Shown one piece after another: positions 128 to 41,725 of a stretch of 64,000 nt of DNA (positions are counted from its first letter, which is position 1; the number at the start of each line of letters is the position of its first letter). The translations under genes were made by a program, and so were the position numbers. The stretch comes from Erythrobacter ani (GTDB taxonomy: Bacteria > Pseudomonadota > Alphaproteobacteria > Sphingomonadales > Sphingomonadaceae), in the NCBI RefSeq assembly GCF_019204025.1, contig NZ_JAGSPB010000001.1, positions 744,001-808,000 on the forward strand, in the 5' to 3' direction. A model generated the notes under the pieces. It saw nothing but the letters and a program-made list of their open reading frames with translations, did not search any database and had not been told where the DNA came from.

Positions 128-811
128 TCAGCGCGCCTCCAGCCAGTCAATCACGGCCTGCACCGGCTCGACATCGGCGTATTTCAGCTGGAGGTCGGTG
201 AGGTTGGCGAAGTGATAGCTTTCGTGCTTGTCGGCGCAGGTCTCGATCGGCACGATCGTGCGGTATCCGTGGCTCAGCGCATCGACTGCGGTGGCGCGCA
301 CGCAGCCGCTGGTAGAGCCGCCGGTCACCACTACCGTATCGACTTTGTGAAACGTCAGATAGCTCGCCAGCGGGGTTTCGAAGAACACGCTCGGCATCCG
401 CTTGGTGAATTGCAAGTCATCGGCATCGATCTCACAGCGCGGGTCGAACTGGTGCCGTTCGCTCTCATACTTGATGTTCTGAAGACTGTCTTCGGTATCG
501 GTGCGCGTGCCCCAGACACCGGCATCGCCTGCATCGGCTTTGTAAGCGACCCGGCTCCAGATCACCGGCATGCCCTTTTCGCGCGCCATCCGACTGATTG
601 TATTGATATATTCGATCTGGCGCGGATCGGTCTCGTAAGCGGTCTTGAACAGATCGGTGCGGGTATAGGCCTGCTGCACATCGACATTGACGATCGCAAG
701 TCTTTCGCCAAACCCGAACTTCTTGCGCGCCGGATTGGCCATCACCTCGTCGAATATCTGGCGGGCGGTCCTGCCGTCCTCGACCATCTTCGTTCCGATC
801 ATTTCGCCCAC
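128..811 (-). CDS. Isochorismatase-family amidohydrolase (N-carbamoylsarcosine amidase / maleamate amidase type)
   Basis: This is a cysteine hydrolase of the isochorismatase fold, expected to cleave a carboxamide or ureido group in the cytosol. Counting from the chosen start, the triad is Asp44 (IVNVDVQQ), Lys137 (FTKRMPS) and Cys170 (GSTSGCVRA). I chose the GTG at 809-811 because GAGGGG lies seven bases before it. An ATG at 845-847 in the same frame would add 12 residues but has no clear ribosome site. The gene is divergent from the alpha/beta hydrolase, with the TTGTCCGGACAA element between them, so it probably belongs to the same regulon. Relatives include N-carbamoylsarcosine amidase and maleamate amidase NicF. 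The real substrate is unknown. Confidence 0.85.
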   Translation of the reverse strand: MGEMIGTKMVEDGRTARQIFDEVMANPARKKFGFGERLAIVNVDVQQAYTRTDLFKTAYETDPRQIEYINTISRMAREKGMPVIWSRVAYKADAGDAGVWGTRTDTEDSLQNIKYESERHQFDPRCEIDADDLQFTKRMPSVFFETPLASYLTFHKVDTVVVTGGSTSGCVRATAVDALSHGYRTIVPIETCADKHESYHFANLTDLQLKYADVEPVQAVIDWLEAR

Positions 812-873
812 GTGAATACCCCTCGATTCTGCTTTGACGCGAACCATAAACTTGCGTAGTGGCTTGTCGAGCA

Positions 874-893
874 AAATTTGTCCGGACAACTTT
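874..893. promoter_or_regulatory. Palindromic operator, copy 1 (TTGTCCGGACAA core)
   Basis: The 20-mer AAATTTGTCCGGACAACTTT has a perfect 12-bp palindrome at 878-889. It lies ten bases before the likely GTG start of the alpha/beta hydrolase and upstream of the divergent amidase. The identical 20-mer, inverted, is at 10085-10104. The spacing and TTGT...ACAA arms resemble sites of FadR/FCD-type GntR regulators, but the cognate regulator is not in the window. Confidence 0.7.
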
Positions 894-902
894 GAGGCGC
901 GC

Positions 903-2264
903 GTGAGCATCCCCATCACTCGGCACATGCTGACGATATCAGGAACCGGTAGACGCGTGCATTATCGCCGGTGCGGCAGTGGTCCGATGCTGCTGATGGT
1001 CCATCAAAGCCCGCGTTCGAGCGCCGAATACACCGCGCTGATGCAGCAATGGGGCGCTCGCTTCACCTGTGTGGCGCCCGACACGCCGGGATTCGGCCAA
1101 AGTGATCCTCTGCCGGAAACCGATGATGCAAAACCCGAAATCGCCGACTTTGCCGATGCATTATGCGAATTTCTCGACGCGCTCGGCGTTGATCGCGTGC
1201 CCGCCTATGGCTTCCATTCGGGCGGGATCATTCTCGTCACCGCGCTGAAGCGCCAGCCGCAGCGTTTCGCTTGCCTTGCGGTCGGCGGCTATGCGATCTG
1301 GAACGAGCAGGAAATGCGCATCTTTGGCGAGCGTTATCTGCCCGAATTTCACCCGAGCGATTACGGCGAGCACCTCACCTGGCTGTGGAACCGTATGCTC
1401 GAACAAAGCTGGGTCTTCCCATGGTTCGACACGCGCGAGGAAGCACGGCTGTCGGTCGCGCATGCCGATATACCGCGCGTGGCGCAGGCCGTCTCCGAGA
1501 TGCTCGATGCGGGCAACGCGTATCAGGCGGGCTATGGAGCCGTTCTGCGCGCACCGCGCGACATTCCGCCCTCCGATGCAGACGTGCCGCCATGCCTGAT
1601 CACCGCCTATGATGGCGATCCGTTGCAGGAGCATATCGACCGACTGGGCGAGATGCCCGCAGGCTGGCAAGCGGAAAAGGTGCGCACTCCCGCCGATCAT
1701 CAGGCGGCAAGCCTCGCGTTTCTTCAGGACCATGCCGCGGATGAAGCGTCACCCGATCTGCCCGAGGACGGCGACGAGGGCTGGCTATCGCTCGATGGCG
1801 GGCTGATCCACTGGCGCGGCGAGAAGGGCGGCAAGCTGGTCCTGCACGGCCCGGCAGGCGAACTCGCAGAACCCGCCGCGGGCGAGATCACTATCGATGT
1901 GCCAGGTCATGGCCAGTCGGACGATTTCGAGGATATGCGGGGCGCAGTCGAAGCAACGGCGCAGGCACTTGGCTCGCCCCAGATCCTGTGGCCTGATCTT
2001 CCGAGCGGCGATCCTGCCAAGCTCTATCCCGACACGATGCCCGATCGTTTTGGACAATACCTCCAGCGCGCATGGGCCGTTGCGCGAGCCGAAGTGTTTT
2101 TCGAACCGTGGTATGAAGCGAGCGCCGCCAGCGCGGTACCGCTCGACGAAGCCGCGCTCAATCCCGCCGCCCTTCACGCCCGAGCGCTCGCCCGTATCCG
2201 AGCCGGCGACGCGGCGCGACGCTGGCACGAAACCCTGATTGCAATCGACGGAGCCACTCAATGA
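903..2264 (+). CDS. Alpha/beta hydrolase with His in the nucleophile-elbow position and a second, degenerate hydrolase half
   Basis: The protein has 453 residues from a GTG start at 903, preceded by GAGG six bases upstream; an ATG at 927 is the alternative. Residues 1-270 form an alpha/beta hydrolase fold with an oxyanion strand MLLMVHQSP and the turn PDTPGFGQSD. The nucleophile elbow reads YGFHSGG. Aligned to the usual GHSMGG, His105 occupies the serine position and Ser106 is shifted by one. Residues from about 300 resemble another N-terminal half (KLVLHGPAG, then DVPGHGQSDD) without a nucleophile elbow. It is the first gene of the seven-gene operon. One candidate role is a NicD-like deformylase or C-C/ester hydrolase; the substrate is not determinable. 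Confidence 0.8.
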   Translation: MSIPITRHMLTISGTGRRVHYRRCGSGPMLLMVHQSPRSSAEYTALMQQWGARFTCVAPDTPGFGQSDPLPETDDAKPEIADFADALCEFLDALGVDRVPAYGFHSGGIILVTALKRQPQRFACLAVGGYAIWNEQEMRIFGERYLPEFHPSDYGEHLTWLWNRMLEQSWVFPWFDTREEARLSVAHADIPRVAQAVSEMLDAGNAYQAGYGAVLRAPRDIPPSDADVPPCLITAYDGDPLQEHIDRLGEMPAGWQAEKVRTPADHQAASLAFLQDHAADEASPDLPEDGDEGWLSLDGGLIHWRGEKGGKLVLHGPAGELAEPAAGEITIDVPGHGQSDDFEDMRGAVEATAQALGSPQILWPDLPSGDPAKLYPDTMPDRFGQYLQRAWAVARAEVFFEPWYEASAASAVPLDEAALNPAALHARALARIRAGDAARRWHETLIAIDGATQ

Positions 2265-2770
2265 CGACCTATGCCGAATTCGCCGAACGAATGCCGCTGC
2301 TTGCCCGCCACGAAGGCGTGTGGGACGGCACATATTCGTACTTCAACGCGCATAACGAGAAGATCGATGAGCATGCGAGCCGCCTGCTGTGCCGTATGAC
2401 GGGCGAAGACGAAATCCCGTATCATCAGACCAATCACTACACCTGGCCAGACGGCAAAACCGAGGTCCGCGACTTCCCCGCCACCTATCGCGACGGGCGC
2501 ATCTGGTGGGACAACGAGCTGATTCAAGGCTGGGCTGCCGAAGTGCCGCTCGACGAGTATAACCGCACCATGATGCTTTACTGGCAGCGCACCGGCGATC
2601 CCTCGCTCTATCTCTACGAGCAGATCCAGATATCCGACGACGGCCAGAACCGCTGCCGCACATGGCATTGGATTCGCGATGGTATGCTGGAGACGCGCAC
2701 TGCCATTCAGGAAACCTTCGTGACGAAGGACTGGCGCGCAATCGATGCGGAGATGAAGGCCTCCGCCTGA
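2261..2770 (+). CDS. DUF3598-like small beta-barrel protein
   Basis: A 169-residue soluble protein with no signal peptide. It starts inside the stop of the preceding hydrolase (ATGA at 2261-2264), so translation is coupled. The sequence is rich in aromatic residues (HEGVWDGTYSYFN, HYTWPDG, IWWDNELIQGW) in a pattern that resembles the lipocalin-like DUF3598 N-terminal domain. No catalytic motif is evident. A ligand-binding or accessory role in the pathway is only an inference from its position between the hydrolase and the hydro-lyase genes. Confidence 0.75.
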   Translation: MTTYAEFAERMPLLARHEGVWDGTYSYFNAHNEKIDEHASRLLCRMTGEDEIPYHQTNHYTWPDGKTEVRDFPATYRDGRIWWDNELIQGWAAEVPLDEYNRTMMLYWQRTGDPSLYLYEQIQISDDGQNRCRTWHWIRDGMLETRTAIQETFVTKDWRAIDAEMKASA

Positions 2771-2780
2771 CCGACCGTTT

Positions 2781-4160
2781 ATGGCAAAGACGCTGTTCGA
2801 AAAGATCTGGGACACACACGCCATCGCGACAACCGCTGGCGGTTCGACCCTGATCGCGATCGACCGCGTCTTCCTGCATGAGCGCACCGGGGCGGCGGCG
2901 CTCAAGCGTATGGCCGAAATGGGCCGCAAAGTGCGCGATCCGGCGCGGGTCTTTGCCGTCATGGATCATATCGTCGACACGCGCATCGGGCGCGGCGACG
3001 GTACGCTTATGCAGGGCGGCGAGGGCTTCATCACCGAAACGCGCGCCGCCTGCTGCGAAGCCGGGATTACCCTGTTCGACGTCAACGATCGCGATCAGGG
3101 GATCGTCCACGTCATCTCGCCCGAACAGGGCATCGTGTTGCCCGGCGTCACGCTGGTCGCGCCTGACAGCCACACCTGCACACAAGGGGCTTTCGGCGCG
3201 CTCGCGTGGGGCATCGGCAGCAGTGAAGCCGAGCATGCGATGGTCACCGGCACGCTGCGGCTCGAACGACCCAAGACGATGCGGGTGCGGATCCACGGCG
3301 CGCTTTCACCGGGGGTGACCGCCAAGGACATGATCCTGACGCTGATCTCCCAGCATGGCGCGGGCGGCGGGGCGGGCCATGTGGTCGAGTTTGCAGGCGA
3401 GGCCGTCACCGCGCTCGACATGGAGGCGCGCATGACGCTGTGCAACATGGCGACCGAATTCAGCGCGATGACCGGGCTGATCGCGCCGGACGCTAAGACC
3501 TTCGAATACCTCTCCGGACGCACCTATGCGCCGGACGATTTTGGCGACCCCTATTGGCGCAGTCTGGCCACCGACGAAGGCGCAGCATTCGACTGTGAGA
3601 TCGCAATCGACGCCAGCGCGATCGCGCCGATGGTGAGCTGGGGCACCAGCCCCGAACAGGCCGTGCCCGTCGACGCATCCGTCCCTCAAGGTCCGGCCCG
3701 CGCCCACGACTATATCGACCTCGATGCAGGCGCGCGGCTCGCCGGAACGCCACTCGACGCCGCCTTTATCGGCAGCTGCACCAATTCGCGGATCTCCGAT
3801 CTGCGCCGCGCCGCGCGCATCCTCGAAGGGCGCCGTATTGCCCCGTCGATCCGCAAAGCACTGGTCGTCCCGGGCTCGCTCGCCGTCAAACGACAGGCCG
3901 AGGCGGAGGGACTGGACAAAGTGTTCGAAGCCGCCGGGTTCGAATGGCGGATGAGCGGCTGCTCGCTGTGCTTTTACGCGGGCGGAGAAGGCTTTCCCGA
4001 AGGATCGCGCGTCATCTCCAGCACCAACCGCAATTTCGAAGGGCGGCAGGGACCGGGCATCCGCACGCACATCGCTTCGCCCGAAACGGTTGCCGCCAGC
4101 GCCATCGCCGGGGCTATCGCCGATCCGCGCGAGTACGCGCGCGAGGAGCAGGCGGCATGA
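2781..4160 (+). CDS. leuC: 3-isopropylmalate dehydratase-type large subunit (aconitase family)
   Basis: A 459-residue aconitase-superfamily large subunit that should carry a [4Fe-4S] cluster. The three cluster cysteines are visible: Cys333 in FIGSCTNSR, and Cys394 and Cys397 in MSGCSLCFY. It begins ten bases after the DUF3598-like gene, and its stop overlaps the small-subunit start. The symbol is by family only. Its neighbours are an HMG-CoA-lyase-type enzyme and a CoA-transferase rather than leuA or leuB, so it probably hydrates or isomerises a maleate/citraconate-like diacid in catabolism instead of making leucine. LeuCD-type hydro-lyases are known to act on maleate and citraconate. Confidence 0.93.
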   Translation: MAKTLFEKIWDTHAIATTAGGSTLIAIDRVFLHERTGAAALKRMAEMGRKVRDPARVFAVMDHIVDTRIGRGDGTLMQGGEGFITETRAACCEAGITLFDVNDRDQGIVHVISPEQGIVLPGVTLVAPDSHTCTQGAFGALAWGIGSSEAEHAMVTGTLRLERPKTMRVRIHGALSPGVTAKDMILTLISQHGAGGGAGHVVEFAGEAVTALDMEARMTLCNMATEFSAMTGLIAPDAKTFEYLSGRTYAPDDFGDPYWRSLATDEGAAFDCEIAIDASAIAPMVSWGTSPEQAVPVDASVPQGPARAHDYIDLDAGARLAGTPLDAAFIGSCTNSRISDLRRAARILEGRRIAPSIRKALVVPGSLAVKRQAEAEGLDKVFEAAGFEWRMSGCSLCFYAGGEGFPEGSRVISSTNRNFEGRQGPGIRTHIASPETVAASAIAGAIADPREYAREEQAA

Positions 4161-4765
4161 GCGCCTTCCCGCAACCGCTGACCGGGCGCGCAGCACCGCT
4201 GCTGGTCGACAACGTCGATACCGACACGATCATCCCCAGCCGCGAGATGCGCAGCACCGGTCGCACCGGTCTTGCCGAAGGGCTGTTCGCCCCGTGGCGC
4301 TATTCCGACGCCGATGCCCGTATCGAGAACCCAGACTTCGTGCTCAACCAGCCGGACTATCGCGGAACGCCGATCCTGCTTGGCGGCGCGAATTTCGGCT
4401 GCGGGTCCAGCCGCGAACACGCCGTGTGGGCGCTCGCCGAATACGGGATCAGGGCGATCATCGCCGAAAGCTTCGCTCCTATCTTCCACGGCAATTGCCT
4501 GCGCAACTTCGTTCTGCCGGTGACGCTCGATCGCGCGGCGGTCGAGGCACTTGCAGGCAAGACCATCGCCGTCGATCTTGCCGCGCAGGAAGTGCGCACG
4601 CAGACCGATGTGCATGCCTTCGACATCGACCCCGAGGCAAAGCAGATGCTCGCCGAAGGGTTGGACGCCATCGACTTGACGCTGGCTCAGGCGAGCGAGA
4701 TTGAACAATGGACCGCCGCCGACCGCACGGCGCGCCCATGGGTGTATCTGGAGCCAACCCGATGA
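4157..4765 (+). CDS. leuD: 3-isopropylmalate dehydratase-type small subunit
   Basis: A 202-residue swivelling domain partner of the preceding large subunit. Diagnostic motifs are NVDTDTIIPS near the N-terminus, GGANFGCGSSREHA around residues 75-88, and SFAPIFHGNC. The ATG at 4157 overlaps the large-subunit stop (ATGA), which fits obligatory one-to-one production. The next gene starts inside its own stop. The frame stays open well upstream of 4157, but that stretch overlaps the large subunit and has no family similarity. Confidence 0.93.
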   Translation: MSAFPQPLTGRAAPLLVDNVDTDTIIPSREMRSTGRTGLAEGLFAPWRYSDADARIENPDFVLNQPDYRGTPILLGGANFGCGSSREHAVWALAEYGIRAIIAESFAPIFHGNCLRNFVLPVTLDRAAVEALAGKTIAVDLAAQEVRTQTDVHAFDIDPEAKQMLAEGLDAIDLTLAQASEIEQWTAADRTARPWVYLEPTR

Positions 4766-5682
4766 CTGAAATTCTCATCTCCGAAGTCGGCCCGCGCGAC
4801 GGGTTGCAATCAATCGAACGGGTGATGCCACTCGAAGCCAAGAAGCGCTGGATCGCGGCCGAAGCGGCGGCTGGCGTGAAGGAAATCGAGGTCGGCAGCT
4901 TCGTCCCGCCCAAGCTGCTGCCGCAAATGGCCGACACTGCCAAACTGGTCGCCTTTGCCAAGGGTATAGCTGGCCTGACAGTGGTCACGCTGGTGCCCAA
5001 TGCCAGGGGCGCGCAATTCGCCATCGATGCCGGGGTCGATGGGATGAGTATCCCGTTCTCGATGAGCGAGACGCATTCGATCAAGAATGTGCGCAAGGAT
5101 CACCCCGCCATGCTCGCAGAGATCGCGGCTGCGGCTGAGATCGCGCGCGGTGCGGGCGTGCATTTCGCCGTGGGCCTCTCCACCGCGTTCGGCTGCACGA
5201 TGGAAGGCGCGGTGAGCGAGGATCAGGTGGTGCGGCTGGCAGAGCAAGCCGCCGAGGCGGGGGCGCAGGAATTCAGCCTGTCGGACACGACCGGCTATGC
5301 CGACCCGGCACAAGTCCGTCGGCTGACCCGCAAGGTGAAGGCGGCGGTCGGCGATGAGATGCTGACGACCCTGCACCTCCACAACACGCGCGGGCTCGGT
5401 CTCGCGAATGTCGTCGCGGGGCTGGAGGAAGGCATCACCACCTTCGATGCCTCGCTTGGGGGTCTCGGCGGCTGCCCTTTCGCGCCGGGTGCGAGCGGCA
5501 ATCTCGTGACCGAAGACCTTGTGCTGATGCTCAATTCGATGGGCTACGACACAGGGATCGACCTCGAAAAATTGCTCGAAGTGCGTGCGATTATCGAGGA
5601 AGCGCTGCCGGGCGAGCCGCTCTACGGCTTCACGCCCGATGCCGGGCCGATGCTCGATTACAAGGACCGCGTAGCAGCATGA
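4762..5682 (+). CDS. Hydroxymethylglutaryl-CoA lyase-type enzyme
   Basis: A 306-residue TIM-barrel lyase that cleaves a 3-hydroxy-3-substituted acyl-CoA to acetyl-CoA plus an oxoacid. The catalytic Arg12-Asp13 (EVGPRDGLQ), the metal ligands in HLHNTRG and the loop cysteine Cys238 (GGCPFAPGASGN) are all present, as is FGCTMEG. The ATG at 4762 overlaps the small-subunit stop. HMG-CoA lyase normally serves leucine breakdown. Here, beside a CoA-transferase and a LeuCD-type hydro-lyase, citramalyl-CoA or a homologue is an equally reasonable substrate. The sequence alone cannot distinguish these. Confidence 0.92.
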   Translation: MTEILISEVGPRDGLQSIERVMPLEAKKRWIAAEAAAGVKEIEVGSFVPPKLLPQMADTAKLVAFAKGIAGLTVVTLVPNARGAQFAIDAGVDGMSIPFSMSETHSIKNVRKDHPAMLAEIAAAAEIARGAGVHFAVGLSTAFGCTMEGAVSEDQVVRLAEQAAEAGAQEFSLSDTTGYADPAQVRRLTRKVKAAVGDEMLTTLHLHNTRGLGLANVVAGLEEGITTFDASLGGLGGCPFAPGASGNLVTEDLVLMLNSMGYDTGIDLEKLLEVRAIIEEALPGEPLYGFTPDAGPMLDYKDRVAA

Positions 5683-6860
5683 GCGCGCCGCAACCTCTCA
5701 AGGGCATCACAGTCGTCGAATTCACTCACATGGTGATGGGGCCGACCGTCGGGCATATCCTCGCAGGCCTCGGCGCTGAGATCGTGCGGATCGAGCCGAT
5801 CGGTGGAGATCGCACTCGGCGGCTGATGGGATCGGGCGCGGGCTATTTCCCGATGTACAATCGCGGCAAGCAATCGATCTGCCTCGACCTCAAAAGCGAG
5901 GATGGGATCGCTGTGGCGAAGGATCTGATCGCTGGCGCGGACATCCTCGTTGAAAACTTCCGCCCCGGTGCGCTCGATCGGTTGGGGCTGGATTACGAAA
6001 GCTGCTCGGCGGGCAATCCTGGCCTGATCTATTGTTGTGAGAAGGGCTTCCTGCCCGGCCCCTACGAACAGCGCACCGCTTTGGACGAGGTCGCGCAGAT
6101 GATGGGCGGGCTTGCCTATATGACCGGCCCGCCGGGCAAGCCACTGCGCGCCGGGGCCAGCGTGATCGACGTCACCGGCGGGATGTTCGGGGTGATCGGA
6201 GTGCTGGCAGCGCTGGAGCAGCGCCACCGCACCGGCAAGGGTCAGAAAGTCACAGCCAGCCTGTTCGAAACGACGATCTACCTCGTCGGCCAGCACATGG
6301 CGCAATACGCGGTCACCGGCACGCCCGCCGCGCCGATGCCCGCGCGCGTTTCGGCTTGGGCGATTTACGATGTGTTCGAGACGAAGGACGAGCCGGTGTT
6401 TATCGGTGTCGTGACCGACGCGCTGTGGGAGAAATTCTGCAAGCTGTTCGGACTGGACCAGCTTTGGGAGGACCAGACGCTGCGTGAGAATAACGCTCGG
6501 GTCGAAGCGCGCGACCGGATCATGCCCCAAATCCGCGCGCTGATCGGCGGTATGACTGCGGGCGAGGTAATCGCCAAGCTGGACGGATCAGGCCTGCCCT
6601 TCGCCCCGATCGGAAAGCCGCAGGACATGTTCGACGATCCGCATCTCAACGAAGGCGGACTGGAGGATGTGACACTCGACAACGGAACCGAGGTGCGCCT
6701 GCCGACGATCCCGCTGGAAATGGATGGCAAGCGGATCGGGTCTCCACAGCATTTGCCAAAGCCGGGCCGCGATGCGCGTGCGGTGCTCGAAGGGCTGGGC
6801 TATGACGCTGGCAGGATCGATGCACTGATCGGGAACGGCGCTGTGGGGGAAAGCACATGA
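5679..6860 (+). CDS. Family III CoA-transferase (CaiB/BaiF type)
   Basis: A 393-residue cytosolic enzyme that moves CoA between carboxylic acids. The N-terminal motif GITVVEFTHMVMGP, the segment VENFRPGALDRLG and the catalytic aspartate Asp136 (TALDEVAQMMGGL) fit formyl-CoA transferase relatives. It starts inside the lyase stop (ATGA at 5679) and is followed by the VOC lipoprotein with the same overlap. In context it should activate the hydroxy diacid made by the LeuCD-like pair so that the adjacent lyase can cleave it. Donor and acceptor are unknown. Confidence 0.93.
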   Translation: MSAPQPLKGITVVEFTHMVMGPTVGHILAGLGAEIVRIEPIGGDRTRRLMGSGAGYFPMYNRGKQSICLDLKSEDGIAVAKDLIAGADILVENFRPGALDRLGLDYESCSAGNPGLIYCCEKGFLPGPYEQRTALDEVAQMMGGLAYMTGPPGKPLRAGASVIDVTGGMFGVIGVLAALEQRHRTGKGQKVTASLFETTIYLVGQHMAQYAVTGTPAAPMPARVSAWAIYDVFETKDEPVFIGVVTDALWEKFCKLFGLDQLWEDQTLRENNARVEARDRIMPQIRALIGGMTAGEVIAKLDGSGLPFAPIGKPQDMFDDPHLNEGGLEDVTLDNGTEVRLPTIPLEMDGKRIGSPQHLPKPGRDARAVLEGLGYDAGRIDALIGNGAVGEST

Positions 6861-7471
6861 GAATGCAGGCGAGGATGTCGGTATTGGCGCTTGGCGCTGT
6901 GGCGCTGGCGGGTTGCACCGTTACCAACAATTACAACGGCACCGCCGCGTCCGCTTCCGACAACCCGCCAAGCGCCGTCGGGGTCGATGCTCCCGCAGAG
7001 CGACTGCCCACCGATGTTCGGCGTACAACCCTGATTGTGCGTTCGATAGAAAACTCGCTGAAGCTCTATCGCGACGTGCTTGGGCTGGAAATCAATTACG
7101 ACACCACCGTCACCACATCAGGCGTTGCCTTGCCAGCAGGCGAGCCAGGTGCGACCGCGCGGCTGGTGCTGCTCAATGCCAACGATGCGTGGGTCGGGTG
7201 GATCGGACTGATGGAATGGGTCGATCCCGCAATCCCGGCAGACGAATATCCCAAGCGAATGGGGCCGGGCGATGTGGTGATTATCCTCAACACAGACGAT
7301 GTCGAGGGACGCTGCGAGGCGGCCATGGCGGTTCCGGGCGTGACCTTCACTGCCGAGGCGCGATTGCAGGTCTATCCGGGGCGCGACGGCGGGCCGGACA
7401 TTCGCGTGATGGGCTGCAATTTCTTCGACCCGGACGGGATCCTGATCGAGCTCAACCAGATCCTGGAATAA
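6857..7471 (+). CDS. VOC/glyoxalase-fold lipoprotein
   Basis: A 204-residue protein with an N-terminal lipoprotein signal ending in LAGC (residues 16-19), a short Ser/Ala-rich linker, then a vicinal-oxygen-chelate domain (RTTLIVRSIENSLKLYRDVL to FFDPDGILIELNQ). The start overlaps the CoA-transferase stop by four bases. VOC enzymes are usually cytosolic; export with a lipid anchor is uncommon. It is the last gene of the operon and overlaps the opposing DUF1330 gene tail to tail by 20 bases. It could bind or transform the pathway substrate outside the cytoplasm. Confidence 0.85.
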   Translation: MRMQARMSVLALGAVALAGCTVTNNYNGTAASASDNPPSAVGVDAPAERLPTDVRRTTLIVRSIENSLKLYRDVLGLEINYDTTVTTSGVALPAGEPGATARLVLLNANDAWVGWIGLMEWVDPAIPADEYPKRMGPGDVVIILNTDDVEGRCEAAMAVPGVTFTAEARLQVYPGRDGGPDIRVMGCNFFDPDGILIELNQILE

Positions 7472-7766
7472 GGTCCGGCCCGTCGATCACCAGCACCTGA
7501 ACATCGGCCAGCCCGTCGCGCAGCTTCTTGGCCTCGGCATATTCCGGGCTGTTCCAGAACGCCTTGATCGCATCGCGGTCCGGCCATTTGGAGATCACCA
7601 TCGACGCGCCGTCACCGAAGTCTCCTTCGAGGCATTCCGCGCCGGGGCCTCGCAGTAGATACTGCCCACCGAACTTCTCGATCAACGCGGCCGCTGCGGC
7701 GCCGTAGCCGGAGACGAACTTGTCGCGATCATGGATGGCGGCGGTGACGATCATATAGGCTGGCAT
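7452..7766 (-). CDS. DUF1330 family protein
   Basis: A 104-residue ferredoxin-like alpha/beta barrel protein of the DUF1330 family (MPAYMIVTAAIHDRDKF at the start, VISKWPDRDAIKAFWNSPEY in the middle). It is the last gene of the minus-strand operon led by the methyltransferase. Its function is unknown. Related dimeric barrels include small oxygenases and isomerases, but no catalytic residues can be assigned here. Confidence 0.85.
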   Translation of the reverse strand: MPAYMIVTAAIHDRDKFVSGYGAAAAALIEKFGGQYLLRGPGAECLEGDFGDGASMVISKWPDRDAIKAFWNSPEYAEAKKLRDGLADVQVLVIDGPDLIPGSG

Positions 7767-7779
7767 GGCGTGGCTCCTG

Positions 7780-8472
7780 TCAAAATGGCTTCACCGCGCC
7801 GAGGAAGCACACCGAAGCGATGGTGATCCAATAGATGTAGGCGGCGATCCGGGCCATGCCTATCTCGCGACTCAGCGCAGCTTCCTGTTCGGCATTCGGC
7901 CCCATCGCGAGGATGCGGAACCGCTCGGTCCAGCGGCGCATCACCAGCCGCAGGAACAGGCCGATGCACAGTGCGAAAGCATAGAGCGCCATCTTCGCCG
8001 GATACCAGTGATTGCCGAGGCCCGACTTGATCGGTCCGCTCCCGGCAAAAGCCATGAAAGACACAACCAGCAGCGCCGCGATCAGTGGGTAGCGCAGCCA
8101 TTCCTCCAGCCGCGTTACAGTGATGCCGATATCGGTCTCGCGCTTGATAAAGGCGGTCCAGGTCATTGCCAGCCACACCGCGAAGAACAGCCACATCAGC
8201 CACACGCCCGCGCCATCCAGCAAGGGGACGAAGCCATAGATCTTGCCCATATGCAGGCCCAGCGGCAGCAGCAAGACGATCCCGGTGCGCGCGAGAATGT
8301 CGATCCGGTAGGCGGTTTCCATATGCCGCTTGCGCTCTTCCAACGACAGGGCAGGATTGGTCACGTGATAGCTCGTCTGGAACACGCCCCACTCGCCGCC
8401 CAGCCAGTAAACCATCGCAAGGATATGAACCCAACGCAGGATGCTGAGTTCGTTCAGATAGAGAAATTCCAT
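7780..8472 (-). CDS. Multi-spanning membrane protein of unknown function
   Basis: A 230-residue protein with about six hydrophobic segments (near residues 10-30, 60-80, 88-108, 128-148, 160-180 and 208-228). The N-terminal part (LRWVHILAMVYWLGGEWGVF) has the WVHI...W pattern seen in DUF2269/CopD-like membrane proteins. It lies 13 bases upstream of the DUF1330 gene and 27 bases after the small coiled protein, in one minus-strand operon. It might be an uptake or redox component of the regulon, but no family is certain. Confidence 0.75.
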   Translation of the reverse strand: MEFLYLNELSILRWVHILAMVYWLGGEWGVFQTSYHVTNPALSLEERKRHMETAYRIDILARTGIVLLLPLGLHMGKIYGFVPLLDGAGVWLMWLFFAVWLAMTWTAFIKRETDIGITVTRLEEWLRYPLIAALLVVSFMAFAGSGPIKSGLGNHWYPAKMALYAFALCIGLFLRLVMRRWTERFRILAMGPNAEQEAALSREIGMARIAAYIYWITIASVCFLGAVKPF

Positions 8473-8499
8473 GATCCCGTTCCCCCAAGCGCGCGGCGA

Positions 8500-8859
8500 T
8501 TATTCCCGAGAAAGCCGCTCCACCACGTCCATGATCGGCGGATCGCTCGCTTCCATCGCTTCGACCTCCTGCTGGAACCCGCGCATGATCCGCGCGACAT
8601 AGGCGCGCGTCGCCAATCCGCGCTCGTCCGCGGCTTCGCGGGTCGGTTCGTAGCGCTCAATATCCTCGCGTTTCACCACGCCATTTTCGTCGAGCAGCCG
8701 CTCGATCGTGTCCTGCCGCTCTCGCAAAGCCGAAACTTCGGCGGCCATGGCGAAGACGGTGGAATAGAGCCGGTCGAGCGCCGGGTCTTCGAAATATTCA
8801 GGACGCTTGCCCTTGGCCCGCTTGCCCGACAGCGCGACCCAGTCCATTTCCTCACTCAC
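8500..8859 (-). CDS. Small charged helical protein of unknown function
   Basis: 119 residues from a GTG at 8857-8859 that overlaps the methyltransferase TGA at 8856-8858 (GTGA), which fixes the start. The sequence is highly charged and mostly helical, with a region EVSALRERQDTIERLLDENG that could form a short coiled coil. I recognise no domain. Position between the methyltransferase and the membrane protein suggests an accessory subunit. Confidence 0.7.
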   Translation of the reverse strand: MSEEMDWVALSGKRAKGKRPEYFEDPALDRLYSTVFAMAAEVSALRERQDTIERLLDENGVVKREDIERYEPTREAADERGLATRAYVARIMRGFQQEVEAMEASDPPIMDVVERLSRE

Positions 8860-10070
8860 GCCGCCACCGCCTGTTCGGATGGCTTCCACGCGCCATAGGC
8901 ATTCCAGATCGCGGCACGTCCAAAATCCTCTTCACCCTCATCGGGCGACGGTGGGAATATCTCCGGATCGACAACCGCGCGGACCCCGGCGACGAATTGG
9001 CTTTCGCGCGGGAAGCCCGCCTCCGCCATCACCTGCTTCAAATCCTGGCCATGCATCGCCGACCAGAACGGCTCGTTGTTGTTGAACGCATCCCAGTCGC
9101 GCATGAATTGTTCGAACAGCGGCATGTCGTCCGAATATTGCGGCTGTTCGATATGAAGGATCAGCCCGCCGGGCGCGAGCACACGGTTCGCCTCGGCCAG
9201 AATGCGCGGCATCGCTTTCGACGATAGCTCGTGCAGAAACATGGTGGTTTGCACCCAATCGAACGATCCATCATCCCAGCGCGACAGGTCTTCGCCCGAG
9301 GCCTGTACGAACTTGATATTGGTAACACCCATCGCAGCGGCGCGCGCCGCGCCATAGCGCAAGGATGCGGCAGCCGTGTCGATTGCGATCACTTCCGCTT
9401 GCGGATAGGCCTGCGCGATCGGCACGGCGTTGTGCCCGACGGTGCAACCGATATCGAGGATGCGCTTGGGCTCCCAATCCGGGCGCTCCTGCTTGGCCCA
9501 GCCGACCACGGCGGTTCCCCCGCCATCGTTCAACCCGCCCAGCGCACCGCCGGTCGTCGCGAACAGACCGACATCGTAATTCGCACCGACCGTCACATCG
9601 TCTTCGCGCTCCTCGCTGTGATAGCCGCCGGGCTGGCAATGGATATCGACCGAGGTCTGGTAATGCGGCTGTTCGACCGAAGGATCGAGTTCGAGCATGC
9701 CCGAATGCTCGTTGAACTGCTTGGCCATGGCGTCGAGCTCATCGAGCTGGCGCAGCACGATCTGGCGACCATTGTGCTGGCGCATCTCCATCGAATTGCG
9801 CTTCAACGCTGACCATACGCGATGCCAGGCGTCCTTGTTCATCCCGTCGCGGATCTCATAGCGGTGTTCGGGATCGCGGCCATGTTCGGCGCGAAATGCC
9901 GGAAGCACGCGTTTTTCATACGCCAGCTTGTTCCCCGCCCCGACCGTGCCCGACAGATAGCGGTTGAAATGGGTCAGGAAATTGAACCGCGCCGCCTCGT
10001 CGTGATTGGTGCGCGGCATCATCGGGTGGCGCGTCAACGCAGTGTACGGGGGGGGCAGATCGGAAGCCAT
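8856..10070 (-). CDS. Class I SAM-dependent methyltransferase
   Basis: A 404-residue protein. Residues 1-190 are a helical extension. The C-terminal half is a Rossmann methyltransferase with motif I ILDIGCTVGHN, the acidic strand EVIAIDTAAAS and the later LAPGGLILHIEQPQ. The ATG at 10070 is preceded by AAAGGG. The shared operator lies 15-34 bases upstream of the start codon, so this is the regulated first gene of the operon 10070-7452. Its substrate is unknown. The long N-terminal extension suggests a specific small-molecule acceptor and not a generic housekeeping enzyme. Confidence 0.88.
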   Translation of the reverse strand: MASDLPPPYTALTRHPMMPRTNHDEAARFNFLTHFNRYLSGTVGAGNKLAYEKRVLPAFRAEHGRDPEHRYEIRDGMNKDAWHRVWSALKRNSMEMRQHNGRQIVLRQLDELDAMAKQFNEHSGMLELDPSVEQPHYQTSVDIHCQPGGYHSEEREDDVTVGANYDVGLFATTGGALGGLNDGGGTAVVGWAKQERPDWEPKRILDIGCTVGHNAVPIAQAYPQAEVIAIDTAAASLRYGAARAAAMGVTNIKFVQASGEDLSRWDDGSFDWVQTTMFLHELSSKAMPRILAEANRVLAPGGLILHIEQPQYSDDMPLFEQFMRDWDAFNNNEPFWSAMHGQDLKQVMAEAGFPRESQFVAGVRAVVDPEIFPPSPDEGEEDFGRAAIWNAYGAWKPSEQAVAA

Positions 10071-10084
10071 GGGTTCACCCTTTA

Positions 10085-10104
10085 AAAGTTGTCCGGACAA
10101 ATTT
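10085..10104. promoter_or_regulatory. Palindromic operator, copy 2 (TTGTCCGGACAA core)
   Basis: The exact reverse complement of the 20-mer at 874-893, with the 12-bp palindrome at 10089-10100. It precedes the methyltransferase operon on the minus strand in the same orientation relative to the gene as copy 1 has to the hydrolase. The identity of 20 bases beyond the palindrome indicates a conserved, functional site. Confidence 0.7.
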
Positions 10105-10263: not shown

Positions 10264-13200
10264 TTGGTGACAACCCCTGATCTGCCTGCCGCAACCGCCC
10301 ACATGCTAGACCGCAGCGATCTGCGCCGGGCGTATCGCGCCTATGAAGACGCTTGCGTGGCCGAGCGGCTGGAACAGGCCAGACCGGCGGCGAAGGTCAG
10401 CGATCGGGCCGCCGCGCTTGCGATCAAGCTGATCGAAGGGGCACGGGCGCGCAAGGCCAGCGGGATCGACGCGTTCCTGCAGCAATTCGGGCTCGACACC
10501 GAAGAGGGAATCGCACTGATGTGCCTCGCCGAGGCGCTGCTGCGCGTGCCTGACCATGAAACCGCCGACGCGCTGATCCGCGACAAGATCGGTGAGATCG
10601 AATGGGGCGAACATCTGGGCGAGAGCTCGTCCACTTTCGTCAACGCCGCGACATTCTCGCTGATGCTGACCGGTGAGGTTCTGGAACAGCCGGATGAGCA
10701 CCAGCGCGGGATGGGTTCGACACTGAAGCGCGCGATGAACCGCATGGGTGAGCCGGTGATACGCACTGCGACCCTGCAAGCGATGAAGATCCTCGGCGGG
10801 CAATTCGTGTTTGGCCGCACCATCGAAGAGGCGCTCAAACGCGCCGCGCCCGAACGCGCAAAAGGCCTGACCCATTCGTTCGACATGCTCGGCGAAGCGG
10901 CGATGACCTATCCCGACGCCGCGCGGTATGCGCGCGCTTACGAAGGCGCGCTCGACCGGCTGGCGAAAGAGGCAAAGGGCGGGATCGGCCCCTCGCCCGG
11001 CATTTCGGTCAAGCTGTCGGCGCTGCATCCGAAATACGATTTTTTTCACGCCGAGAAAGCCCGCGCCGAGATCGTGCCGATTGTGAAGGCACTGGCGATC
11101 AAGGCGCGCGATGCAAACATCCACTTCACCATCGACGCAGAGGAAGCCGAACGGCTCGAACTCTCGCTCGACATTATCGAGACGCTGGTCGCCGATGACG
11201 AGCTGTTCGCCCGCGCAGACGGATCACGCTGGGAGGGCTTTGGCCTCGCCGTGCAGGCCTATCAGAAGCGCGGCGTGCCGCTGTGCGACTGGGTGGCCAA
11301 GCTCGCCCGGCGGCACGGCCGCAAGCTGTTCGTGCGGCTCGTCAAAGGGGCGTATTGGGACAGCGAGATCAAGATCAGCCAGGTGGGCGGGTATGACGAT
11401 TATCCGGTCTTCACCCGCAAGATCGCGACCGACGTGTCGTACCTCGCCTGTGCCGCGCGATTGTTCGAACATGACGATGTGATCCGTCCGGCCTTCGCCA
11501 CACACAACGCTTACACAGTGGCGGCGGTGAAGCAGATGAGTGCGGGTCGCGCGTTCGAATTCCAGCGGCTGCATGGCATGGGTGAGGAAGTCTATGAAGC
11601 CCTGCACAAGCTCGAAGGCAATTCGCCCACGCCGGTGCGCATCTACGCGCCGGTCGGCGGGCACAAGGAATTGCTCGCCTATCTCGTGCGGCGCCTGCTT
11701 GAAAACGGCGCCAACACCAGTTTCGTCAACCGGATGGGCGATGCAGACGTGCCGGCGGAGGAACTGGTTGGCGATCCGGTCAGCGAACTTGCGGCACTGT
11801 CACCCTATCGCAACCCGGCCATCCCACTGCCCGAAGACATCTTCGGCGAGCGCCTGAACAGCGCCGGGATCGACCTGTCCGATCCGCTGGTTCTGGGTCC
11901 ATTGCAGGCGAGGCTCTCAGAACTCGCGCAGCAAAGCTGGAGTGCCGAGCCGACCTTTCCGAGCGACGAGCCCGGAGAAATTGCGCCGATTACCTCGCCT
12001 CAGGACACACGCATCGAAGTCGGCACTCGCCGCGATACCACCCCCGCCGAGGTCGAGGACGCGATCACCCGTGCGATGGCGATCCAGCCGGGCTGGGACG
12101 CACTGGGCGGCGAAAAGCGCGCGCTGCTGCTCGAAGAAGCGGCCGATCTGTTCGAGGATCACGCGCCTGAATTTCTCTCGCTGTGTCAGCGCGAGGCGGG
12201 CAAGACGTTGCTCGACGCGGTGCTCGAACTGCGCGAGGCGGTCGATTTCCTGCGCTTCTATGCGGGCGAGGCCCGGCGGCAATTTTCACAGCCAATGCCG
12301 CTGCCCGGCCCGACCGGCGAGGAAAACACACTGAGCCTGCATGGCCGCGGCGTGTTCGCGACGATCAGCCCCTGGAACTTCCCGCTCGCGATCTTCATCG
12401 GCATGGCCTCGGCGGCGCTGGCGGCTGGCAACACGGTTGTCACCAAACCCGCCGAACAGACCCCGCTGATCGCCGCGCTCGCGGTGAAGCTTTGCCATCA
12501 GGCCGGCATCCCGCCCGAAGCGCTGCAATTGCTGCCCGGCGCGGGCGAAGTCGGTCAGGCGATCACTTCGGACCCGCGCATCGCCGGGGTCGCCTTCACC
12601 GGATCGACCGAGACTGCGCGGCTGATCAATCAGGCGCTGGCCGCACGCGAAGGCCCGATCGCTACCCTTATCGCCGAAACCGGCGGGCAGAACGCGATGA
12701 TCGTCGATTCCAGCGCCTTACCCGAACAGGTCGTGCGCGACGTTGTCGCCAGCTCGTTCCAGAGCGCTGGGCAGCGCTGCTCGGCCCTGCGGGTGCTATA
12801 TCTGCAGGACGACATCGCCGATGAGATGCTGGAGATGATCCGCGGCGGATTCGAGGCGCTGACCGTGGGCGACCCCGCCGACCTCGCAACCGATGTGGGC
12901 CCGGTGATCGATCCCGATGCGCAGGCCGCGCTGGAACGGCATGTGGCGCGCCGCCAGCAGAACGACCGCACCGTCTGGCGGCTCGATCTCGATGGAAGCA
13001 CCGCAAATGGCTGTTTCGTGGCGCCGACAATCATAGAGCTGGATTCGATCCTCGACCTGCGCCGGGAGAATTTCGGCCCGGTCCTCCACGTCGTACGCTA
13101 CGCATCCGAGAATCTCGGGCAGGTGATCGCCGATATCAACGCGACCGGTTACGGTCTGACGCTGGGCCTGCACAGCCGGATCGCTGCGACCCGCAAGTTC

Positions 13201-13410
13201 GTGCAGGCGCGCGCGAAAGTCGGTAACTTCTATGTCAACCGCAACCAGATCGGCGCCATCGTCGAAAGCCAGCCCTTCGGCGGCGAAGCGCTCTCGGGCA
13301 CCGGACCCAAAGCGGGAGGCCCGCACTATCTCGCGCGCTTCGCAACCGAGCGGGTGACATGCATCGACACGACCGCCGCGGGAGGCAATGCGAGCCTGCT
13401 GGCGAGTTAG
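10264..13410 (+). CDS. putA: Bifunctional proline dehydrogenase / L-glutamate gamma-semialdehyde dehydrogenase PutA
   Basis: A 1048-residue enzyme that oxidises proline to glutamate in two steps. The FAD-dependent PRODH barrel carries [25 protein letters not shown] and ATHNAYT. The ALDH domain from about residue 590 carries Glu805 (IAETGGQN) and the catalytic Cys839 ([10 protein letters not shown]). It begins with a TTG (or GTG at 10267) seven bases after GAAGG. There is no N-terminal ribbon-helix-helix domain, so this is the minimal bifunctional type and not the DNA-binding trifunctional type of E. coli. It is transcribed away from the catabolic island. Confidence 0.96.
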
Positions 13411-40079: not shown

Positions 40080-40679
40080 CTAGGCGGCGCAGGCAGTTGC
40101 AATAAGCCGAAGCTCATCAATCCAAAACTCAATGTTTCGTCGCCCGTCCGCTCGGAGAAAATTACCAATCCTATAAGCGTCGTAATTCATGCGACTATCA
40201 TAAGCGGAATGAGCACCGAGCCTTTCGCGGCAGTTCGACCTTCGATGACAGAAGTAATTCCTGACCGTATTTATAAATGGAGCAGGCGATGAAGTTGCAA
40301 ATAGTGCCAATTGAATCTGGGCGCTCTTGTTCGAATCGCATTTTTTCTCGGCTTTGACAGCCGCTTTAGCCGAATGCCATTTGGGTTCGTGTCCAAGATT
40401 GTTGGACACAGCATTCAAGATGTCGCGCCGGCCAAAGCGGTTAGTAGGATGCACCCGGACTCCGGAGAGATCGGTCGCGTGCCCCGATGCGTTGTCAATG
40501 ATAAGCTCGCGACAGAAGTCCCCCCAAAGATCGTTTAGATCAATGATGCAATATGCCGCATTATGCTGAACGTCTTTGGGAGTATCACGATTCCACGCAG
40601 CCAATGAAGGACTGCTAGGAAATACTGTCAGCAGCTTATGCGTTTTCCTAAGGAATTCTTGAGCCACTCGGGCACTCAT
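40080..40679 (-). CDS. HEPN-type protein (MAE_28990-like), partner of the DUF262 protein
   Basis: A 199-residue helical protein (ATG at 40679; a GTG at 40682 adds one residue). The region DLNDLWGDFCREL and the motif RNYFCH near residues 140-145 give the RX4H signature of HEPN ribonucleases. It starts in the TGATG of the DUF262 stop, so the two are translated together. Base composition is visibly AT-richer than the neighbours, as is that of the DUF262 gene, which points to recent transfer. Toxin or RNase activity is inferred from the motif only. Confidence 0.75.
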   Translation of the reverse strand: MSARVAQEFLRKTHKLLTVFPSSPSLAAWNRDTPKDVQHNAAYCIIDLNDLWGDFCRELIIDNASGHATDLSGVRVHPTNRFGRRDILNAVSNNLGHEPKWHSAKAAVKAEKKCDSNKSAQIQLALFATSSPAPFINTVRNYFCHRRSNCRERLGAHSAYDSRMNYDAYRIGNFLRADGRRNIEFWIDELRLIATACAA

Positions 40680-41725
40680 CACTCACCAGAGATAGCTTCA
40701 ACAAAGTGAGGAAATCTTACCCTGCGGCTTGCTATTCTCTGAGTTGATGACGACGAAGCGCTCCAAAATTCGGCGAGATCTTCAGGCTCATCCTCTGCCT
40801 CAATCGCAACAGCGAGATCGTTCAATCGAGCCCTGATAGCATTTATATCGGCATCGGTTTCCGCGTCTTCATCAAATTCGTCATCCTCCAACGCACCTTG
40901 GGGAATTCCGACCTCACAGTGCGCCACAGCAGCAAAGAGCATAATAAAATGTGCCGGGCGCAATAGTGCAGACCCTTCGATGTCCTCCAAAACATTCTCT
41001 TTTATCCAATTAAGAGTTGTGTCGAATTCGCCCTCAACTTCTTCCCTGTCGAAGTCTTTATGATCATCGTATTGGCTGTAGAGTTTGCGAACGTTCGGCT
41101 GCCCGCCGTCTTGAACACCCCGCAAAAGCAGGCCGTACAATTCAGCTACAAATGAGGTATGGTACATGCGCACCATCCTAGCTTTGCTAAACAGCCCTGT
41201 TTGCTCCCAAAAAGCATACAGTTCGTTCGCCTTTTCGTGAGCAGACCATTTGAATTCGCCCTGAAATTCGGCATGGCGAAGTTCCGGTGCATTTAGTTTG
41301 ACGTTATAGGAATTGAGGCGAGCAAATATTTCCAAGACAAGCTGATCATCAGCATTCGCAAGATGGTCTACTGAGAGAGCATATTGAAGAAATCGATCTT
41401 TTTTCTCGTCATCCAATGTCGAGAACTTTTTGCCAGCAAACTCTTTTGCACGACTGCTCAGAGTAATCTTATCTGCGGCAAAATCTATGATTGCTCGGAG
41501 CCTTTGCTGACCATCGACAACTTCGCGGCGTGTGCGCTTTGAGTCACGATCAATGAAGGATCTCATGTAGATTTTTGGAACCGGTAGATCTCTCAAAATT
41601 GTGTCAATCAGCATGATTTTCGCAGCGGCCGACCATACTGACCCCCGCTGAAATTCGCGGTTAATCAGAAGCGCCTTGTTGTCGTGCCACTCCAAAAAAT
41701 CGGAAACCCGGAATTGCTCGAGCAC
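40679..41725 (-). CDS. DUF262 domain protein (ParB-fold nuclease/NTPase-like)
   Basis: A 348-residue protein with the DUF262 motifs FQRGSVW (25-31), DGQQR (71-75) and FARLNSYNVKLNAPELRH (134-151). There is no DUF1524 HNH domain, so it is the short form and not a full GmrSD-type enzyme. It starts with GTG at 41725, only six bases after the nrdB stop and with the ribosome site overlapping that stop, so it can be made from the nrdB mRNA. The downstream HEPN gene is coupled to it. DUF262/HEPN pairs occur in defence or toxin-antitoxin loci. Confidence 0.85.
   Translation of the reverse strand: MLEQFRVSDFLEWHDNKALLINREFQRGSVWSAAAKIMLIDTILRDLPVPKIYMRSFIDRDSKRTRREVVDGQQRLRAIIDFAADKITLSSRAKEFAGKKFSTLDDEKKDRFLQYALSVDHLANADDQLVLEIFARLNSYNVKLNAPELRHAEFQGEFKWSAHEKANELYAFWEQTGLFSKARMVRMYHTSFVAELYGLLLRGVQDGGQPNVRKLYSQYDDHKDFDREEVEGEFDTTLNWIKENVLEDIEGSALLRPAHFIMLFAAVAHCEVGIPQGALEDDEFDEDAETDADINAIRARLNDLAVAIEAEDEPEDLAEFWSASSSSTQRIASRRVRFPHFVEAISGE

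Follow-up and report, generated by a model that had tools for sequence, protein, structure and literature searches.

In Erythrobacter ani, genes of the kinds annotated as leucine biosynthesis and leucine breakdown stand under the same operator as amide hydrolases, which raises the question as to what compound, other than leucine, such a gene set might handle. The genes lie at the start of a 64,000-nucleotide stretch (the window; C1:744001-808000, C1 being contig NZ_JAGSPB010000001.1) in a genome of 3,153,164 bases (3.15 Mb) on 7 contigs. The answer that we hold to be rather probable is a catabolic regulon that removes nitrogen from its substrate and then cleaves an (R)-2-substituted malyl-coenzyme A (malyl-CoA), with a further branch of the (S)-citramalyl-CoA type. 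An earlier reading of the window from its letters alone (the sequence-only reading) had proposed a regulon for an amide-containing, maleate-type compound; as an overall interpretation it is supported in part, namely in its co-regulated catabolic set, its amide part and its acid part outside leucine metabolism, and lacks support in its identification of an alpha/beta hydrolase as NicD. None of the publications listed by our literature searches describes this gene set; the conserved catabolic set is apparently undescribed, and its individual enzymes are of known kinds.

A Shared Operator and Its Probable Regulator

All twelve genes between 128 and 10070 are present, and the architecture described in the sequence-only reading is borne out: five four-base-pair overlaps tie together the plus-strand operon (ends/starts 2264/2261, 4160/4157, 4765/4762, 5682/5679 and 6860/6857), in which the leuC start at 2781 is separated by ten bases from the preceding gene end at 2770, and the same 20-bp operator stands before both main operons, at 874-893 on the plus strand and at 10085-10104, read on the minus strand, before a methyltransferase unit. 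The first copy belongs to a tandem element, CTTGTCGAG-n-AATTTGTCCGGACAA, at 863-893 in the promoter region between the divergent genes for an isochorismatase-family protein (ISO) and an alpha/beta hydrolase (ABH), where the operator core occupies 878-889 and the common 20 bp 874-893. The exact sequence TTGTCCGGACAA has four copies in the 3,153,164 bases of the genome (C1:722137, 726720, 744878 and 754089), all within 32 kb (C1:722137-754100), and a reversed control pattern has none genome-wide; chance does not account for this. A search of the window alone with two mismatches allowed returned three matches against a mean of 2.2 expected, which is not significant; the case for the operator thus rests on the exact match and its genome-wide clustering. 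The window does not include two of the four operators, which lie upstream of it at distances of up to about 22 kb.

The position of the element is conserved. In 42 of 47 loci with a long ABH open reading frame (ORF), a partly redundant set, an exact operator lies between -500 and +250 of the start of that frame, and the remaining 901,055 bases of these loci hold 20 further exact sites. An alignment on the exact core gives cTTGTCGAGnnnAATTTGTCCGGACAA as the consensus, in which capitals mark bases shared by at least 90% of the 41 distinct sequences among 43 copies. The window's consensus element (863-893) ends nine bases before the GTG at 903, and TTGTCG with the following ACAACT could be the -35 and -10 boxes, with the operator lying over the -10. 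In one other genome (G072), the operator 12-mer has 36 exact copies, against nine or fewer in any other of the 298 genomes sampled from the family (source genome included); the places listed are scattered, and the copies possibly lie within a repeat.

The gene at C1:716413 encodes a regulator with GntR and UTRA domains that scores 83 bits on the HutC model TIGR02018, short of the cut-off of 220, and is thus HutC-like rather than HutC. Across the 298 genomes, 30 carry the regulator and 38 carry at least two exact operators; the latter are found in 28 of the 30 genomes with an orthologue of this GntR protein against 10 of the 268 without one, and 8 of those 10 have the lyase discussed below (Fisher tests on this co-occurrence ignore relatedness and are descriptive only). 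We infer that regulator and operator form a pair, and the regulon is probably repressed by this HutC-like GntR protein. The conservation of operator and synteny argues against independent expression of the genes. The plus-strand putA gene (10264-13410) starts only 164 bases past the core of the second operator, and for that reason might also be under its control.

The LeuCD-like Pair and the Lyase Differ from the Leucine Enzymes

The acid part of the module is formed by a LeuC-like hydro-lyase large subunit (2781-4160, plus strand; PF00330), its LeuD-like small subunit (4157-4765, plus), a lyase of the 3-hydroxy-3-methylglutaryl-CoA (HMG-CoA) lyase family (4762-5682, plus) and a class III CoA-transferase of the CaiB type (5679-6860, plus). 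Window LeuC is non-canonical: it scores 524.6 bits on TIGR00170, under the LeuC equivalog cut-off of 560.25, against 765.4 bits for the genome's other LeuC, to which it is 47% identical. It keeps the three iron-sulfur cysteines (GSCTN, GC[SA]xC), and the loop that follows them reads CFYAG in place of the CLGMN or CLAMN of canonical copies. In a FastTree phylogeny of 119 LeuCs, a branch with support 1.0 splits 85 module-type sequences (loop CF) from 34 others, and all 30 canonical sequences (CLGMN or CLAMN) fall among the 34. Window LeuD scores above its own model cut-off (187.1 bits on TIGR00171, cut-off 116.25) and is 41% identical to the genome's other LeuD. The sequence-only reading had left open that this pair might be the organism's sole isopropylmalate isomerase; a second, canonical LeuCD is encoded elsewhere in the genome, and, judged by score, loop and clade, window LeuC is not a leucine-pathway enzyme. 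The same pattern extends to the relatives: 51 of the 53 genomes that have the lyase (presence being set at E<=1e-90) hold a canonical LeuC, at least 68% identical to that of the source genome, beside a further LeuC, the exceptions being G105 and G267 (the latter 76% complete).

The lyase likewise has a counterpart in the genome, a second HMG-CoA-lyase-type gene whose product is 39% identical to it, a result that bears on the concern in the sequence-only reading that the lyase might act only on HMG-CoA from leucine breakdown. Window lyase consists of the HMGL domain only (306 residues), scores 277.4 bits on PRK05692 (cut-off 246), and its RDGLQ, HxH and GLGGCP motifs align with 1ydo and 2cw6. 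It has HLHNT, and HxHNT is found in 95 of 96 module members against HDT in the solved HMG-CoA lyases 1ydo, 2ftp and 2cw6 and in the genome's other copy. By its sequence, window lyase is a member of a distinct HMG-CoA-lyase subfamily, here called HNT. The other HMGL-type gene, in locus L013 (C1:697508-703744 of the source genome, G000), stands next to a gene for a CaiB protein and a pair of large genes, hydantoinase A/B-like by eye, and represents a different CoA-lyase cluster. The CaiB protein of the window matches PF02515 at E=2e-107 (359.9 bits, cut-off 23.3) and remains under the cut-offs of the named equivalogs (succinate-glutarate 229.5/750, mesaconate 183.3/700 and formyl 205.1/504.2 bits).

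Amide Hydrolases and the Alpha/Beta Hydrolase

ISO (128-802, minus strand) is an isochorismatase-family amide hydrolase and a probable half-amidase (PF00857, E=8.7e-30); its start was corrected to the ATG at 802 from the N termini of relatives, the frame being open to 928. It matches N-carbamoylsarcosine amidohydrolase (E=2e-29), 4l07 (2e-26) and 3ot4/3uao (3e-20), and with the first two the alignment runs over about 190 residues and brings its catalytic Asp, Lys and Cys into register. Against 3ot4/3uao it spans about 150 residues and leaves the Asp region outside, Lys and Cys being in register with 3ot4; 4l08 has Ala at the position of the catalytic Cys. The structures 4l07/4l08 and 3uao we take to be maleamate amidases, the B. 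bronchiseptica enzyme being the subject of a published paper. These alignments uphold an amide-hydrolysing part of the module, and ISO, which shares with the maleamate amidohydrolases the isochorismatase domain and an Asp-Lys-Cys set in register with 4l07, is no closer to them than to N-carbamoylsarcosine amidohydrolase.

Just outside the window, an aldehyde dehydrogenase gene and tandem PuuE-like genes (C1:742139-743065 and 743062-743943) adjoin ISO. The products of the pair match PuuE at E=5e-22 and 7e-27, and PuuE relatives hydrolyse cyclic amides. Both also match, weakly, 3qbu, the structure nearest to HxnM; as far as PMC9304392 describes it, HxnM, 64% identical to a Pseudomonas putida cyclic imide hydrolase homologue, opens a cyclic imide.

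ABH (903-2264, plus; start corrected to GTG 903 from the N termini of relatives) has a long C-terminal part, a PF00561 domain (E=3.2e-12) and, by eye, a Ser nucleophile elbow, GFHSGG. The sequence-only reading had made it a NicD, the deformylase of nicotinate breakdown. That specific identity finds no support: among solved structures ABH comes nearest to alpha/beta hydrolases of a general kind, epoxide hydrolases and dehalogenases among them, in alignments that mostly cover about 70-180 residues, and only generic matches appear in the family scan and among the best 60 of 103 solved relatives, a comparison made without a NicD sequence. A DUF3598-like protein with a lipocalin fold (D35; 2261-2770, plus) is encoded between ABH and LeuC.

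The Upstream Part of the Regulon

The regulon extends beyond the window, its upstream sites lying near the HutC-like GntR regulator, TonB receptors, oxygenases and two PuuE-like hydrolases; it would span at least the 32 kb between operators (C1:722-754 kb) and, with its neighbours, perhaps about 45 kb, of which the window would hold the lower end. The operator at 726720 has a membrane-protein-like gene on one side and a TonB-receptor gene on the other; the latter is followed by VOC, esterase, MFS, FAD-oxidase, nitrilase-family, DUF3108-like and monooxygenase genes. Several upper-pathway proteins start, by eye, with signal-like N termini, and for one upstream flavin (FAD) monooxygenase the nearest solved relative is tropone 2-monooxygenase and the second 6-hydroxynicotinate 3-monooxygenase. 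The C-N hydrolases of the region comprise ISO, three PuuE-like proteins, a nitrilase-family protein and an amidase.

Site 722137 is bordered on one side by a DUF1838 gene and on the other by an opposite-strand unit that encodes a Ccl/RipC-like lyase, an Ich/RipB-like MaoC hydratase, an acyl-CoA dehydrogenase and two CaiB proteins; beyond this unit comes the GntR/UTRA gene and, on its far side, two MmgE/PrpD genes. The first three genes of the unit stand together beside an exact operator in all four relatives examined upstream (L076, L079, L082 and L084). According to the portions of PMC12290011 that deal with it, the itaconate/methylsuccinate cluster of Pseudomonas and Cupriavidus has five genes, Ict, Ich, Ccl, Mcd and Msi, and all five families are found here (PF02515 twice, PF19315/PF01575, PF03328, PF00441 and PF03972 twice): Ccl-, Ich- and Mcd-like proteins and CaiB within the unit, MmgE/PrpD beyond the regulator. 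The five-gene cluster, as described there, lacks LeuCD, an HMGL-type lyase and amide hydrolases, whereas here both sets stand under one operator. The (citra)malate-like acid proposed in the sequence-only reading gains from this set, which lay outside its view.

Conservation and Distribution

The lyase is found in 53 of the 298 genomes, in 30 of them at 74-100% identity (source genome included) and in 23 at 58-65%, and ISO in 54; 52 genomes have both, and in 43 of these 52 the two lie no more than 10 kb apart. Together with the four clustered operators and their conservation, this co-occurrence bears out a co-regulated catabolic set. At E<=1e-90 the lyase is absent from all six sampled congeners (G041, G121, G180, G223, G260 and G292), so that the module is patchy and perhaps mobile. 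In a separate listing of named relatives, which kept 80 of at least 580 loci and may leave out the window's own record, the nearest lyase relatives among the matches listed are from Erythrobacter (89-92% identical), and the names include Erythrobacter, Novosphingobium, Blastomonas, Sphingorhabdus, Sphingobium, Sphingomonas, Steroidobacter, Hyphomonas, Henriciella, Kordiimonadaceae and many Gammaproteobacteria. The gene set occurs in many water- and soil-dwelling bacteria.

Protein clustering covered 103 loci longer than 8 kb (8 of 111 were dropped as shorter), a redundant set in which some loci are the same contig as judged by length, for example L055 and L097, and L054 and L101. It gave counts of 96 for the lyase, 93 for CaiB, 88 for LeuC, 69 for LeuD, 60 for PuuE-like proteins, 52 for ABH and 52 for ISO, misses being due in part to failures of ORF picking. 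Gene order falls, by a rough grouping, into three kinds. That of the window combines the operator with divergent ISO/PuuE and hydrolase/D35/LeuCD/HMGL/CaiB units and recurs in relatives, a recurrence that the sequence-only reading had proposed to look for in other sphingomonads. A second kind, from Novosphingobium, includes flavoproteins and a quinone-reductase-like gene. The forms of other proteobacteria have LeuCD and CaiB/HMGL, and amide hydrolases are often missing from the stretch covered. In one locus (L065:15671-18911; genome G031, C25 at about 72.7-75.9 kb), a second set stands beside the module, with genes of the arylmalonate-decarboxylase, methylisocitrate-lyase and isochorismatase families and a gene that is PuuE-like by BLAST without a Pfam match; it is perhaps a CoA-free version of the same pathway logic.

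Proposed Pathway and Comparison with Known Systems

As to the order of the reactions, their stereochemistry and the substrate, we infer the following scheme. A sizeable compound would enter through the TonB receptors and be processed in the periplasm and by the flavin oxygenases; the PuuE-like hydrolases would open a cyclic amide or imide, and ISO would strip the amide nitrogen to leave a 2-substituted maleate. The LeuC/LeuD-like pair would hydrate this to an (R)-2-substituted malate, of which the CaiB protein would form the 4-CoA ester, and the HMG-CoA-lyase-type enzyme would split the ester into a 2-oxo acid and acetyl-CoA, or, where C3 too bears a substituent, a different acyl-CoA. In parallel, the 722137 unit would take a saturated or isomeric branched diacid by a route of the (S)-citramalyl-CoA type, so that two complementary routes for branched diacids seem to be combined in the regulon. 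That the substrate is sizeable and contains nitrogen is suggested by the several C-N hydrolases, the TonB receptors and the flavin oxygenases, and the gene content suggests that it yields branched diacids.

A tertiary alcohol is not directly oxidisable, and a CoA-ester lyase in place of malate dehydrogenase would answer this. As stated in PMC6689899, (S)-HMG-CoA is the substrate of TIM-barrel lyases, and the (S)-citramalyl configuration is the counterpart of (R)-HMG; esters of the (R)-citramalyl type would therefore suit window lyase. The lower reactions of the scheme are predicted with moderate confidence.

Parts of this scheme have known parallels. The maleate hydratase HbzIJ and the dimethylmaleate hydratase DmdAB are catabolic hydratases of the LeuCD type, which act on maleate or an alkylmaleate and are followed by malate dehydrogenase or a free-acid lyase; the LeuCD-type hydratase in a catabolic setting is common to them and to the present module, in which CaiB and an HMGL-type lyase come after in place of those steps. 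The D-citramalate transferase of Chloroflexus is presumably of the CaiB type and its lyase a member of the HMG-CoA-lyase family. From the relevant part of PMC8307300, a succinyl-CoA:D-citramalate CoA-transferase (EC 2.8.3.20) and an (R)-citramalyl-CoA lyase (EC 4.1.3.46) exist, a pair of transferase and lyase like that proposed here for an (R)-2-alkylmalyl-CoA. The Chloroflexus enzymes are likened to the module by function, not by sequence, and differ from it in that a LeuCD-type hydratase, amide hydrolases and the operator are present here.

Points Against and Rival Explanations

Several observations weigh against the proposed regulon or parts of it. The acid part does not have to be supplied by the amide part: ISO lies more than 10 kb from the lyase in 9 of the 52 genomes (17 kb in G296, 22 kb in G289, 98-448 kb in three and on another contig in four), and in many gammaproteobacterial loci neither ISO nor a PuuE-like gene is present within about 10 kb. 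The PuuE-like protein next to ISO scores 117.4 bits on TIGR03212, far under the allantoinase cut-off of 424.6, and in the 722137 unit the Ich/RipB-like (227.8 bits, cut-off 340) and Ccl/RipC-like (221.1 bits, cut-off 375) proteins likewise miss their equivalog cut-offs. The HNT motif alone does not exclude HMG-CoA as substrate, since 6nds, annotated as an HMG-CoA lyase, shares it. No ring-cleaving dioxygenase was identified with confidence. In G105, a genome 99% complete, the module LeuC is the only LeuC at E<=1e-90 and might for that reason serve leucine synthesis; the organism may be a leucine auxotroph or use the module LeuC for leucine.

G105, with the family names, also speaks for regarding the module as spare leucine genes, LeuCD making leucine and the lyase breaking down HMG-CoA from leucine breakdown. 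We regard this as highly improbable given the canonical LeuCD elsewhere in the genome, the score and separate clade of window LeuC, and an operator common to amide hydrolases, TonB receptors and the itaconate-type set. A pathway like that of nicotinate, in which a dioxygenase cuts a pyridine ring, the alpha/beta hydrolase deformylates and ISO deamidates, would fit the alignment of ISO with amidases including 4l07 and 3ot4/3uao, and the 6-hydroxynicotinate 3-monooxygenase that is second-nearest to the upstream FAD monooxygenase. It is nonetheless unlikely: plain maleate would give malate and need no CoA lyase, ABH is not specifically NicD-like, the TonB receptors suggest a larger substrate, and general family scans, with no search aimed at NicX, found no NicX-type 2,5-dihydroxypyridine dioxygenase.

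The acid module might instead act on a 2-aryl-malate, a lactam such as dioxindole-acetate being opened and CaiB and the lyase yielding acetyl-CoA and an arylglyoxylate. The C-N hydrolases and the CaiB/lyase pair fit such lactam opening and CoA-dependent cleavage, but LeuC would then be superfluous, and yet it is kept with the lyase (88 and 96 of the 103 loci), and the upstream itaconate/methylsuccinate-type set fits short branched diacids better; we consider this quite unlikely. That the module is biosynthetic, an acyl-CoA and a 2-oxo acid being joined into a 2-alkylmalate for a secondary metabolite, is hardly credible: the HMGL superfamily does include synthases, but the protein here is an HMGL domain alone, the lyase model gives the best score, and the presence of hydrolases, TonB receptors and a transporter speaks for breakdown.

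A more specific version of the nitrogen-stripping regulon, which we rate as very doubtful, would have it degrade cyclic imides from tetrapyrroles (chlorophyll, haem and bilins). The PuuE-like hydrolases would open alkyl-maleimides, derived from unsaturated rings, and alkyl-succinimides, derived from reduced ones, and ISO would deamidate the products; the dialkylmaleate would pass through LeuCD, CaiB and the lyase by way of an (R)-malyl-CoA, and the dialkylsuccinate through the itaconate/methylsuccinate-type set by way of an (S)-malyl-CoA, each ending in an acyl-CoA and a 2-oxo acid. A substrate that gives both kinds of diacid would be matched by the two acid branches, which differ in stereochemistry and stand under one operator. 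Leaves contain mono- and dipyrrolic products of chlorophyll breakdown, as reported in PMC7318184, which makes such imides possible substrates, although no gene content here is specific to them. If true, this would be a missing bacterial end of chlorophyll and bilin breakdown.

The proposed regulon gives a coherent, testable function to genes annotated as leucine biosynthesis or breakdown in 53 of 298 genomes of the family and in named Alpha- and Gammaproteobacteria, a mis-naming that distorts metabolic models. It looks like an undescribed route in which nitrogen is stripped and the remaining branched acids are cut to ordinary food molecules; the operator is a sharp marker for the substrate hunt, and the gene content points to an unrecognised nitrogen compound that yields branched diacids.

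Other Genes of the Window

The plus-strand operon ends with a protein of the VOC (glyoxalase/dioxygenase) superfamily (6857-7471; PF00903, E=2.5e-8) whose N terminus is lipoprotein-like by eye. On the minus strand follow a DUF1330 protein (7452-7766; PF07045, E=6.7e-23), a product that looks membrane-protein-like by eye (7780-8472; no Pfam family above cut-off), a small protein (8500-8859) and an S-adenosylmethionine methyltransferase (8856-10070; PF13649, E=1.3e-19) with about 200 N-terminal residues outside the domain. The last two genes are linked by a sixth four-base-pair overlap (8856-8859), and the pair recurs in relatives; a paralogue of the methyltransferase, 37% identical, lies at C1:738590-739777. 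Three of the twelve gene products have no Pfam family above cut-off. Farther along the window, an ORF at 40679-41725, DUF262-like by eye and adjoining a ribonucleotide-reductase small-subunit-like gene, has a low third-position GC content (0.47) and was possibly acquired.

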